The notes beneath the pieces are model-generated. The model did no database searches and was not told where the DNA came from. It was given only the letters and a program-made list of their open reading frames with translations. Source: Cryptobacterium curtum DSM 15641 (GTDB taxonomy: Bacteria > Actinomycetota > Coriobacteriia > Coriobacteriales > Eggerthellaceae). From it: 64,000 bases of DNA. The stretch spans positions 1,342,501-1,406,500 of the forward strand of contig NC_013170.1 of the NCBI RefSeq assembly GCF_000023845.1. The letters are read 5' to 3'. Shown here one piece after another: positions 4,134-11,661 of this stretch (the first letter of the stretch is position 1; every line of letters begins with the position of its first letter). Made by a program: the position numbers and the translations under genes.

Positions 4134-4439
4134 CGAGTTCATCCAGAATCTGCATGACTCAAACGCGTGTATCCCACAACCCTTCACGCCGACGCGCCCG
4201 GCAGGCTATACTAGTCACACCGAGAAACCCGCCGGGGCCTTTGGCAAGCGCCGGCAAGAGAAGGGACGAGGCGCGTGAAGAACTAGCGATGCCCACACCT
4301 ATCCGAAAACCAAGCGACATCGCTGGCGGCTATGCCACGGGTGCAGCATCGCGTGCGTAAACGCTATTCCAAAGCCATATATCCTAAAACCGATGATCGC
4401 CTGCTGCCCCCGCATGACCTCCTGCAGAACCGAGGCAAC

Positions 4440-5927
4440 ATGCAGCTCAACCTTACCAATATCGAATATGCCTATCCGTCAGCGGCAGACCCTGCTCTGC
4501 GTGGCGTGACCGCGACACTCCCGCAGGGATGGACTGGTCTTGTCGGCAACAACGGCGGGGGCAAGACGACGCTTGCCCTTATCGCATGCGGGATACTACA
4601 GCCCGACGCCGGCACCGTCACACCGTCCCTCTTCTGCACCTACTGCGCTCAAAGTGCGAAAGAACCGCCAATCAATGTGAAAGATTTCGCGGTTGCCTAC
4701 GACAGCTTGGCCGTAAGGCTTCGCCGCGGGCTTGCCATCGAGGGCGACTGGCCCTGGCGTTACGGCACACTCTCCGGAGGGCAGCAGAGGCGCCTGCAGG
4801 TGGCCTGCGCCCTGTGGGCTGCCCCCGACGTGCTCGTCGTGGACGAGCCGACCAACCACGTCGACGCCGTGACAAAGCGCGCCATAGCCGCAGCTCTCTC
4901 GAAGTTCGACGGCATCGGGTTGCTTGTCTCGCACGACCGGGAGCTTCTCGATGCGCTCTGCACGCAGTGTCTGCTCGTCGCGGACGGCGCAGCCGTCATG
5001 AGGCCCGGCGGATACTCGCAGGCGTCCGCGCAGGTGGCCCTCGAACGCGCAAGCGCCATTCATGCACGAGACGCGGTCCGCAAGGAGAAGGTCCGTATGG
5101 AGAGCGAAGCGCAACGCCGCCGCGAAGAGGCTTCTCGTGCCGCCGGCAAGAGAAGCCTCAGGGGCATAAACAAGCATGATGCGGACGCGCGCCGGAAGGT
5201 GCGCGTGGCGGTGATGACCGGCAAGGACGGGAAGGCGGGCAGGCTCTCGTCGTGCATGACCGGCAGGCTGGAGGGCGCGAAGGCGAGGCTTGCGGCGACA
5301 CGGGTCGAGAAGCGCTACGACGCCGACGTGTGGCTCGACGCCGAGCACAGCAGGCGCAAGGTCCTCTTCAGGATGGGACCCTGCAGCCTTCCCCTTGGCG
5401 ATGTCTCTTTGAGCATGCCTGCGTTGTACATTGGGAACAAGGACCACGTCGGGCTCGTCGGGGACAACGGCTCCGGCAAGACGACGCTGGTCGAGAGGAT
5501 CGTGGAGGGTCTTCCCGATGCGACGAGGCTCCTCTACATCCCCCAGGAACCCGACGAATCGCAGAAAAGAGAAGTGCTGCGGACGATACGCAAGCTCTCG
5601 GCCGCGCGGCGCGGGCGCGTCCTCTCCATTGTGGCGCAGCTCAACTCCAACCCAGACCGCATGCTCGAAGGGGATGCCGTCAGCCCTGGGGAGATGCGCA
5701 AGCTCATGCTCGCCCTCGGGATCCTCGAATCGCCGGAGCTCGTCATCTTGGACGAGCCCACCAACCATCTCGACCTCGGGTCGACGGAGGCCCTCGAGCG
5801 CCTCTTGTCCGCGTATCCCGGGGCGCTCATGCTCGTCTCGCACGACGCCGCCCTGCTCGGCTCTGCCACGGGCGTGACCTGGAAGATAGAGGCGACAGCG
5901 AGCGGCTACAAGCTCACGGTGGGCTAG
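4440..5927 (+). CDS. ABC-F family ATPase (two ABC domains, no membrane segments)
   Basis: A 495-residue protein with two ATP-binding cassettes. The first has Walker A GNNGGGKTT (residues 36-44), signature LSGGQ (111-115) and Walker B ending DEPTNHVD (135-142). The second has GDNGSGKTT (341-349), a variant signature SPGEMRKL (415-422) and DEPTNHLD. A charged linker at about 195-285 separates them, as in ABC-F proteins that bind the ribosomal E site. Members either tune translation or give ribosomal protection against antibiotics; which applies cannot be told here. ATG 4440 is chosen because similarity begins there, though its GAGG site is weak; the frame is open upstream to 4332. It is clearly more G+C-rich than the flanking genes and sits between two gene remnants, which suggests horizontal acquisition. 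Confidence 0.9.
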   Translation: MQLNLTNIEYAYPSAADPALRGVTATLPQGWTGLVGNNGGGKTTLALIACGILQPDAGTVTPSLFCTYCAQSAKEPPINVKDFAVAYDSLAVRLRRGLAIEGDWPWRYGTLSGGQQRRLQVACALWAAPDVLVVDEPTNHVDAVTKRAIAAALSKFDGIGLLVSHDRELLDALCTQCLLVADGAAVMRPGGYSQASAQVALERASAIHARDAVRKEKVRMESEAQRRREEASRAAGKRSLRGINKHDADARRKVRVAVMTGKDGKAGRLSSCMTGRLEGAKARLAATRVEKRYDADVWLDAEHSRRKVLFRMGPCSLPLGDVSLSMPALYIGNKDHVGLVGDNGSGKTTLVERIVEGLPDATRLLYIPQEPDESQKREVLRTIRKLSAARRGRVLSIVAQLNSNPDRMLEGDAVSPGEMRKLMLALGILESPELVILDEPTNHLDLGSTEALERLLSAYPGALMLVSHDAALLGSATGVTWKIEATASGYKLTVG

Positions 5928-6192: not shown

Positions 6193-6965
6193 TTGAGACA
6201 GCCCGACGGGCGCTTCGTCCTCAAAGATGGCAGCGGCCTGCTCGCCCGCGTCCCCGACGGCCGCGCCACGCGGGACATCGGTTTCGCAACGGTCGCGCGC
6301 GATTCCTCCGAGTTCGTGCTCACGGCGATAGTCAAGCTTGTCGGCAAGGACATGGGCAATTTCCTCACGTTCAGGCTTGACAAATGGATGGAATCCTTGG
6401 ACGAGAACGGCTACTCACGCCTGATCAAGCTGCGTTTTCAGACCTACTTAGGCCACGAGGAGAAGGATCCCATCCTCATCGACCTGTCGCTCGACTGCAG
6501 TATCACACAACCCGCAGAGTGAATTGCGCCTGCTAACAGGGTGCATGTCGACGGCCTCAAGTCATGCGACTACCTCGTCCACCCGCTTGTCGACCAACTG
6601 GCTGACAAGCTGTGCGCAATAATGGAAAGGCAGCCCGGCGGTTGGCCCTCATCGAGGATGAAGGACCTGGTCGACGTCGTGTACTATATCACGAACATCA
6701 GCCTTCCCCTCGATAGCCTTGCCCACTCAATACAGTGCGAATGCTCTAAGCGCGGTATGGCCGTCCCGGAGTGCTTCGAGGTGCCCCGGGATTGGGCGGG
6801 AGGCTTCGCAGCGTTCGCCAAAAAAGCAGCGTTCCCAAGGAGTACACCTCGTTTGATGCAGCATCATCGCTCGTATCCACGTTCTTCGACCCCGCCCTCG
6901 ACGGTTCTTTCGATCATGGGACCTTATGGGACTTCGAATCGCTGCGCTGGCTGCTGAAAGACTAG
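6193..6965 (+). pseudogene. Broken AbiEii/AbiGii-type nucleotidyltransferase toxin gene
   Basis: The translation resembles AbiEii/AbiGii toxins of type IV toxin-antitoxin systems: GLLARVPDGRATRDIGF (nucleotidyltransferase start), IDLSLDC, then LVDQLADKLCAIMER and PSSRMKDLVDVVY. The gene is broken in three ways. The N-terminus is missing, since nothing recognisable precedes 6193. An in-frame TGA lies at 6520-6522, with the same frame continuing at once beyond it. A frameshift near 6836 moves the C-terminal part (KEYTSFDAASSL to RWLLKD) into another frame, ending at 6965. No AbiEi-type antitoxin gene is next to it. Base composition resembles the neighbouring ABC-F gene. Confidence 0.8.
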
Positions 6966-10496: not shown

Positions 10497-11168
10497 GACA
10501 CACACCTTCGCTGCATAAGCATTATGCAAGATCGATCTGCAAAAGAATTGCCCTCCAGCACTATCGCTTTTAAAAGTTGCACGGCTGCCGGTTGTTTGTC
10601 GCAATTCGTACAAAACTTCCCGACACTTCAGTCTGGACGAGCTGTATCACGGTTTCTCATCATAGCAAAGCCAGCTAAGGCCTCTGTGCTGCAGTTCTAA
10701 AATGCACCTTTTTAACGGGACAGCAATTTTTGACTGACAAAGCAAGTAAAACAGTACATGAGCTAACTTGCGCAAGTAGATGCGAGAGAGTAACTGTGAG
10801 GCAACATGAAATAGTGGATATTCATAATGGGATACGAGAAATAGTGTGTATAACCGAGTGAATACGAAATAAGAAAACTCTCTGGAGTAGGACCCAGAAT
10901 AGTGTCCTGCAGCCCAGAGAGCGTTTTGTCAAGTACCTTTTTATGTTTATGGACGATTTTTTGAAAATTGAACAACAAAAAACAGTAAACCTTTTTGATT
11001 TACTGTTTCATAAGTTGCTATATAATTGTTTATATTTAATTGTTTTACTTCGACAAATTTTGAAAATTTCTTTTTTCTTGTTTGGTTATATAACTATACC
11101 ATTCCATAAACGGATACCCCCAAAATTCTAAATTTACTTAATTTAATAAATAGGGAGTTCAAGATGTA
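10497..11168. other. Gene-poor region upstream of gatC, turning strongly A+T-rich
   Basis: About 670 bp without a gene I can support. The first 430 bp have host-like composition and must hold the gatC promoter. GAAATAGTG is repeated at 10808 and 10838, 30 bp apart. A long hairpin follows at 10874-10927. From about 10930 the sequence becomes A+T-rich with runs of T and A and continues so through the EXLDI gene, which suggests that the boundary of an imported segment lies close to the hairpin. Confidence 0.6.
10874..10927. terminator. Long interrupted hairpin at the edge of the A+T-rich island
   Basis: CTCTCTGG (about 10878-10885) pairs with CCAGAGAG (10914-10921), AGGAC with GTCCT inside it, and an outer AAAA pairs with TTTT across a two-base bulge. 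On the minus strand the stem is followed by TTTTCTTATTT, so it could terminate transcription coming from the EXLDI gene towards gatC. It could equally belong to a small RNA; nothing decides this. Confidence 0.5.
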
Positions 11169-11537
11169 CTAAATATCTAGTACTTCTACTATTTCTCCAT
11201 TTTTTTCTTTAAACATAATTTTTTTGACTACTTCTTCTCCTAAATATTTTGTAAACTTAGTCAATTCTGTTGATACTTCAAATACTATATTATGTTTGAT
11301 ATCACTTAATTCAAAACTCGAATCATATCTTGTTCTATCTGACCAATAGTTCCAATTTATATCTGTCCTTTCATAATAAACATAGTTTCCTTTTGGAGTT
11401 ACAAATACTCTTTTATTTATTAACTTCTTTTCATTTTCGGATTTAAATATTTCAGAATACAGCTTCATCCCTTTAAATATTTTGTAATTGCTAATTTTAT
11501 CATTTGAAATATTTAATTTAATTTCTTCATACTTCAT
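11169..11537 (-). CDS. EXLDI-family-like small protein in A+T-rich foreign DNA
   Basis: A 122-residue hydrophilic protein ending EVLDI, matching the C-terminal motif after which the EXLDI protein family is named; the middle TPKGNYVYYER also fits my memory of that family. Its molecular role is not known to me. Codon use is extreme for this genome: nearly all third positions are A or T, and G+C is about one quarter by eye, unlike every other gene in the window. ATG 11537 is chosen because GGAGG lies 6 bp upstream; a TTG at 11558 lacks such a site. The gene stands alone between gatC and a hydrolase gene. Recent transfer from a low-G+C donor such as a firmicute or fusobacterium is the simplest explanation. 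Confidence 0.75.
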   Translation of the reverse strand: MKYEEIKLNISNDKISNYKIFKGMKLYSEIFKSENEKKLINKRVFVTPKGNYVYYERTDINWNYWSDRTRYDSSFELSDIKHNIVFEVSTELTKFTKYLGEEVVKKIMFKEKNGEIVEVLDI

Positions 11538-11661
11538 AGAAAACCTCCGCAAATTCAATTTTTTTCTCTCTAAATCCTCCTTTTTGTGTCTATATATTAT
11601 TCCTGTTCAGTTAATATTATGCAACCCATGGCGCATGCCCGAAGGACAACCAGCTTGCCTT

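Follow-up and report, generated by a model that had tools for sequence, protein, structure and literature searches.

A 712-bp A+T-rich island in the chromosome of Cryptobacterium curtum, an oral actinobacterium (PMC3035227), is a real and recent cross-phylum transfer. It is probably a relic of a TnpX-type IME, similar to a cis-mobilizable element (CIME; defined in PMC5704250), in which a single cargo gene of the EXLDI family was kept. Since recombinase and mobilization genes are missing, the island is not itself an IME. The initial annotation of the window (the whole 64-kb stretch of DNA analyzed) had described an A+T-rich patch of about 700 bp, and that description holds. G+C over the island (710 bases scored) is 0.249, ~6.6 standard deviations under the mean of 710-bp windows across the 64 kb (mean, 0.521; SD, 0.041), or 24.9% against 52.1% for the window, while the next-lowest 710-bp window outside the island reaches 0.428. 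G+C steps at ~10925 and ~11610 (50-bp windows), no more than ~15 bp from the limits given in that annotation, and positions 10916 to 11624 have ~25% G+C in surroundings of 52%.

The unit contains the following features, given by position in the window; L061 and L125 are complete elements, and L044, L051, and L127 further loci, with which it was compared.

10913 to 10915, unstranded: CCC, left copy of a 3-bp direct repeat (GGG on the minus strand; target core), from junctions compared with L061 and L125, both GGG flanked.
10916 to 10962, minus: left element end, an attachment end with an outward TTGACA, 91 to 95% identical to L051 over 42 to 47 bp and 86% identical to L061 over 49 bp.
10979 to 11009, minus: terminator-like hairpin 3' of the gene, 13 pairs and then a T run, an IME-specific repeat, from the terminator scan and repeat map.
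11010 to 11168, minus: A+T-rich spacer from gene to hairpin, aligning with the post-EXLDI spacer of L044 (Lachnospiraceae).
11169 to 11537, minus: EXLDI gene, 122 aa, intact (TIGR04342; 97.8% nucleotide identity over 418 bp with Streptococcus G609).
11544 to 11548, minus: GGAGG, ribosome binding site of the EXLDI gene, from the sequence.
11563 to 11573, unstranded: deletion joint; EXLDI-leader homology stops at 11562 and tnpX-leader homology starts at 11574.
11574 to 11624, minus: right element end and former tnpX leader, with a CATAAT box and AGGAGGAT, the ribosome site of the lost tnpX, from L061, L125, and L127.
11625 to 11627, unstranded: CCC, right copy of the 3-bp direct repeat, from the junction comparison.

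The terminator scan found 2 terminator-like sites against 0.1 expected in shuffles. For the integrated state, no minus-strand promoter site in the island scored above the scan threshold, and an Rfam search of the window returned one tRNA, with no match in the island. Identity to L044 is ~70% in one alignment spanning 10974 to 11558. Elsewhere in the window, positions 4332 to 5927 and 6193 to 6957 are G+C rich (58 to 66%) and encode a 531-aa double-ABC ATPase and, after it, two AbiEii-type gene pieces in separate ORFs (E = 6.5e-4, below the cut-off, and 1.9e-7), probably a broken defense gene.

The single intact gene that the initial annotation had recognized, with a good ribosome site and a product ending in EVLDI, is present as described: it encodes 122 residues from an ATG and is preceded by a GGAGG 6 nt upstream. 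Its EXLDI-type assignment was borne out by an NCBIfam search, in which TIGR04342 was matched over its full length (model positions 1 to 124 of 124) at 102.8 bits (cut-off, 32). The protein shares with this family both the full-length match and the C-terminal ExLDI; LDI ends 23 of the 24 family proteins in our tree, and LDV ends the other. Members of 170 to 190 aa have an N-terminal extension of ~48 residues, whereas the island protein is a short form without it. No other family match was found in the C. curtum genome.

The annotation had also proposed foreign codon use and recent arrival, and both proposals gained support. GC3 of the EXLDI gene is 0.19, compared with 0.39 to 0.53 in four adjoining genes. 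A nucleotide search for a donor matched window positions 11145 to 11562 (418 bp) at 97.8% identity to G609, a genome of the genus of Streptococcus macacae, and among 100 relatives sampled, only the C. curtum genome itself had a family match (0 in the 99 others). In genome samples that overlap, the family was matched in 7 of 296 genomes from the host class (its own included), 33 of 245 in the family of S. macacae (32 over the cut-off), 5 of 299 in the family of Lachnoanaerobaculum, 3 of 398 in the phylum of Lachnoanaerobaculum (2 over the cut-off), and 5 of 6 in that genus itself. The tree pairs the window protein with the G609 copy (support, 100/99); next comes a protein ~80% identical from G825, a genome of another family in the host's order. 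The window and G609 genes differ at 6 codons (3 synonymous and 3 nonsynonymous), too few for a selection test, and selection on the island gene is compatible with the data. Comparison with G825 (dN, 0.11; dS, 1.59, near saturation; NG86) shows an older purifying constraint on the family.

Near-identity across phyla is a repeated feature of this family, with proteins 96 to 99% identical in three separate EXLDI lineages. A single nucleotide of 372 separates the G786 (host order) gene from that of Streptococcus G532. For the 170-aa long form, three cross-group pairs (Lachnospiraceae, Streptococcaceae, and the host order) were compared, with 96 to 98% identity. Long-form genes were seen at L045, L046, L050, L054, and L057. 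Streptococcus G609 carries two EXLDI genes from different lineages (L060 and L063), ~30% identical to each other. Searches for EXLDI in plasmids and phages gave no match, viral contigs contained neither the gene nor the exact end patterns, and the full island DNA had one short match in a plasmid collection, to an unannotated Fusobacterium record and confined to the hairpin. That record (Fusobacterium vincentii; L085, 6001 to 6041) is labeled a plasmid, yet it is 2.1 Mb long. A plasmid or phage source is disfavored by these results; the L061 element likewise has no near plasmid match.

A more specific vehicle is suggested by the DNA on either side of the gene. The initial annotation had reported no transposase or integrase, and indeed no recombinase is encoded within the island, nor was a recombinase gene seen among the ORFs listed around it, but both ends of a recombinase-mobilized element are present there. 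In Streptococcus G532, L061 is a complete 6.9-kb Tn4451/TnpX-type element within a VirD4-type coupling-protein (conjugation) gene. Its products are a 612-aa serine recombinase (Pfam Resolvase, Recombinase, Zn_ribbon_recom, and DUF4368), TnpW, glyoxalase-family, TfoX-like (below the Pfam cut-off), and EXLDI proteins, along with DUF3847, a MobA/MobL relaxase, and SnoaL-like and SAP-domain proteins. Its left end matches window positions 10913 to 11007 (E = 4e-15) and its right end 11574 to 11629 (E = 3e-16), in the same relative order and orientation. At the right end, identity is 89.7% over 58 columns with L061, 94.7% over 57 with L125, and 92.9% over 56 with L127. L125 is a second complete element, also in a VirD4-type coupling gene and without EXLDI, and the gene in its EXLDI slot is presumably alpha/beta-hydrolase-like. 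Serine-integrase IMEs in traG of streptococcal ICEs have been described (PMC5357655).

Both complete elements are flanked by copies of GGG, and an uninterrupted coupling gene in a Streptococcus agalactiae plasmid record reads AGATGGGGAAC where they interrupt it. The same GGG (CCC on the plus strand) stands at the two window joints, 10913 to 10915 and 11625 to 11627, and delimits the 712-bp unit. From these junctions, the empty C. curtum site is predicted to be CCTGCAGCCCATGGCGC, and the uninterrupted sequence is predicted to be GTGTCCTGCAGCCCATGGCGCATGCCC. We looked for an empty site in relatives, among which genome G001, the nearest with the same neighbors, has gatC, an MBL gene, and a VanZ-like gene ordered as in the host, but it was unusable since an extra gene occupies the gatC-MBL interval. 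An insertion sequence was also rejected: the island has no inverted repeats at its ends and has paired serine-recombinase ends instead. When the ends are joined in silico, TTGACA-N17-CATAAT is formed in both the window and L061, and TTGACG-N17-CATAAT is formed in L125; on circularization, the window unit and L061 would carry the same predicted circle-joint promoter. Lyras and Rood are said to have reported in 2000 that circularization of Tn4451 creates a tnpX promoter, with which the joint promoters of the window, L061, and L125 agree.

We propose that a complete relative, equipped with TnpX, TnpW, and a MobA/MobL relaxase and with EXLDI among its small cargo genes, inserted by recombination at a GG(G) core, its circle-joined ends forming a strong promoter directed at tnpX. 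In C. curtum, two deletions would then have left just the ends and the EXLDI gene. One would have removed the mobilization side, probably through recombination between two direct copies of a 27- to 29-bp terminator hairpin, the first lying 3' of the cargo gene and the second ahead of the left end. L061 has two identical direct copies so placed, after EXLDI and before the left end (8161 and 11410), and recombination between them would delete DUF3847, mobL, and other genes to leave cargo, hairpin, and left end, as in the window. The other deletion would have run between the two leaders, those of tnpX and EXLDI, and taken tnpX and tnpW along with other genes. Its joint lies within 11563 to 11573 because leader homology with G609 ends at 11562 and tnpX-leader homology begins at 11574 (limits from the L063 match at 11145 to 11562 and the L061 match at 11574 to 11629). 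EXLDI stayed intact, with its own ribosome site and terminator. The sequence itself shows the family, the foreignness, the near-identity to Streptococcus, both ends, the core repeat, the hairpin, and the deletion joints. We infer the mechanism of these deletions, the direction of transfer, and any expression of the gene from sequence comparison, and the data leave the order and timing of the deletions unfixed.

The hairpin, AACAGTAAATC...GGTTTACTGTT, recurs between IME modules in L061, L125, L134, L137, L044, L051, and others. We scanned 25 stretches, namely, the window, 18 with IME ends or genes, and 6 in which EXLDI or its neighbors stand outside such an element (L063, L052, L003, L048, L058, and L045). 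The hairpin was present in 14 of the 18 (L137 and L061, both counted, overlap at one place; L128, L132, L135, and L136 lack it) and in none of the 6. Simple shuffles of L061 gave no matches to the pattern. The recurring hairpin is a possible point of deletion and shuffling.

Eroded elements of this kind were seen repeatedly. Apart from the window itself, a left end of this type was read at 12 distinct loci, and only 2 of them (L061 and L125) had a full-length TnpX match in the fetched stretch, a set that was picked by similarity to the window's ends from chosen stretches and gives no unbiased rate. L051 (G786) retains a left end and fragments of mobL and DUF3847, and its EXLDI gene is intact, 1 of 372 nt off that of L061; at L051 7633 to 8913 and 8860 to 9300, this relic adjoins what we take to be a tmRNA-gene-like stretch. 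L124, L126, and L135 occupy one common Streptococcus insertion site and have worn right ends; L124 carries a glyoxalase-family gene, L126 a TfoX-like gene, and L135 no cargo. These three resemble a natural decay series, one element type shrunken three ways. Near other left ends are genes for GNAT (L133), DUF3267 (L132), isochorismatase (L129), and TfoX-like (L131, called from 30% identity to the TfoX-like L061 protein) proteins. C. curtum itself contains a second eroded IME at ~926 to 928 kb (L084, about 925.8 to 929.6 kb) with one hairpin copy, a recombinase truncated after ~267 matching residues that are 98% identical to an intact one in Streptococcus G532, an intact 205-aa cargo gene (94% identical), and a small ORF that is presumably TnpW-like. 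The sole serine-recombinase match in the C. curtum genome is a truncated copy away from the island.

It is conceivable, though unlikely, that the 712-bp unit is instead a mobile, nonautonomous single-gene element that TnpX moved as such in trans, with the circle supplying an EXLDI promoter. In favor are its intact ends and core repeat, a predicted joint promoter that would read directly into EXLDI, the youth of the gene, and the existence of other small single-cargo units flanked by ends. However, the same internal joint is absent elsewhere in 284 Streptococcus genomes and 140 genomes of a host-order family (f4), and the three small Streptococcus units at one site, with their worn right ends, resemble decay in place. 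Moreover, decay after recent arrival is seen twice in the C. curtum genome, which favors a relic over a self-moving unit. A broader version of the idea strikes us as improbable: that TnpX-type elements of oral bacteria yield nonautonomous single-gene cassettes (two attachment ends, one cargo gene, and a common hairpin) that spread across phyla through TnpX in trans, switch-on by the circle promoter, and shuffling at hairpin repeats. If true, such cassettes would work somewhat like integron cassettes, spreading EXLDI, TfoX-like, VOC, or GNAT genes.

Some observations do not sit easily with the relic reading. A full element carrying this EXLDI lineage was not found, no empty site was seen in another C. 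curtum strain or in G001 (which carries another gene between gatC and the MBL gene), and the closest copy, L063 in G609, has no TnpX ends around it; its neighbor is a HEAT-repeat gene, and the region also encodes an FtsK-type ATPase and a tyrosine integrase. The missing ends around that copy might suggest that EXLDI arrived alone, via transformation or an ICE as in G609, and that the likeness of its flanks to IME ends is secondary or due to chance. We consider this very doubtful given two independent end matches (each E < 1e-14) in the right order and orientation and with a common core repeat. An assembly artefact or contamination, which low G+C and near-identity with Streptococcus DNA might raise, is very unlikely because the genome, a single contig of 1,617,804 bp, matches in length the finished type-strain (12-3T) genome described in the genome report (12.9x Sanger, from 8-kb and fosmid libraries, plus 20x 454, 32.9x in all; PMC3035227), and the insertion joints are canonical.

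As a probable relic of a TnpX-type IME, the island resembles several known systems in part. With Tn4451/Tn4453-type IMEs that use TnpX (related Tn6104), it shares ends with a 2- to 3-bp direct repeat and a predicted circle-joint promoter, and its direct-repeat-flanked ends are homologous to those of a TnpX element. However, where L061 carries TnpX, TnpW, and MobA/MobL, the island lacks tnpX, tnpW, and mob; EXLDI alone is encoded, with no large serine recombinase, TnpW, or relaxase. Its core is GG(G), compared with GA in those IMEs, and its single cargo is EXLDI in place of catP; Tn4451 is described as recombining at a 2-bp core (PMC5704250, PMC3158075). Like a CIME, the island has lost integration and transfer genes and kept both attachment ends (attL and attR), but it is very small and stands alone between host genes, with no tandem ICE or IME, and its mobility is putative. 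L061 and L125, each with a serine integrase and located in a VirD4-type gene, are similar to the IMEs found in traG (the VirD4 coupling-protein gene) of streptococcal Tn5252-type ICEs (PMC5357655), whereas the island occupies an intergenic chromosomal site.

The function of EXLDI can be addressed only tentatively. For the island protein, searches of Pfam and of PDB sequences gave no match, PHROGs gave chance-level matches only, and PADLOC, whose library is limited to known defense systems, gave none at E <= 10. The one paper naming EXLDI that we found in the open literature lists a 369-bp EXLDI gene beside a TnpW gene among those gained by a Parvimonas micra tumor isolate (PMC11076991); none was found on EXLDI function. 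The predicted fold, a four-stranded sheet plus helices, comes from a model of middling confidence (pLDDT, 68.6; pTM, 0.67; 5 sequences), and Foldseek found no match to it at E <= 0.001 in the PDB or BFVD. The best VIA-align Z scores were 4.8 for PURA, ~4 for PARP WGR, and 3.6 for Whirly, none reaching 5, and a Z below 5 proves nothing. PURA, PARP WGR, and Whirly bind nucleic acids. In long members, the 48-aa N-terminal piece of L037 resembles ribbon-helix-helix families below Pfam cut-offs (VapB_antitoxin, E = 0.001; CcdA, E = 0.0056), while that of L045 had no such match in Pfam. No partner is constant across the loci read: EXLDI adjoins an ABC exporter and a two-component system at L047, an ABC ATPase at L045, an MFS transporter at L003, a NERD-domain gene at L052, and a HEAT/DNA_alkylation gene at L063. 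The ribbon-helix-helix-like N terminus of long members, the adjoining export genes, and the PUR/WGR/Whirly-like predicted fold all point weakly to a regulatory or stress role, and EXLDI might be a small nucleic-acid-binding protein of that kind.

Altogether, the island is a known kind of element, and what seems worth following is the repeated hairpin as a point of deletion and shuffling and the prospect that such units are still mobile. It offers a base-level case of a gene recently crossing from low-G+C oral Bacillota into an actinobacterium, and it illustrates that the loss of a vehicle can spare one cargo gene, leaving a solitary "orphan" that seems to have had no vehicle. The recurring IME hairpin suggests a route, open to testing, by which cargo could be deleted and shuffled, and EXLDI emerges as a broadly exchanged family.
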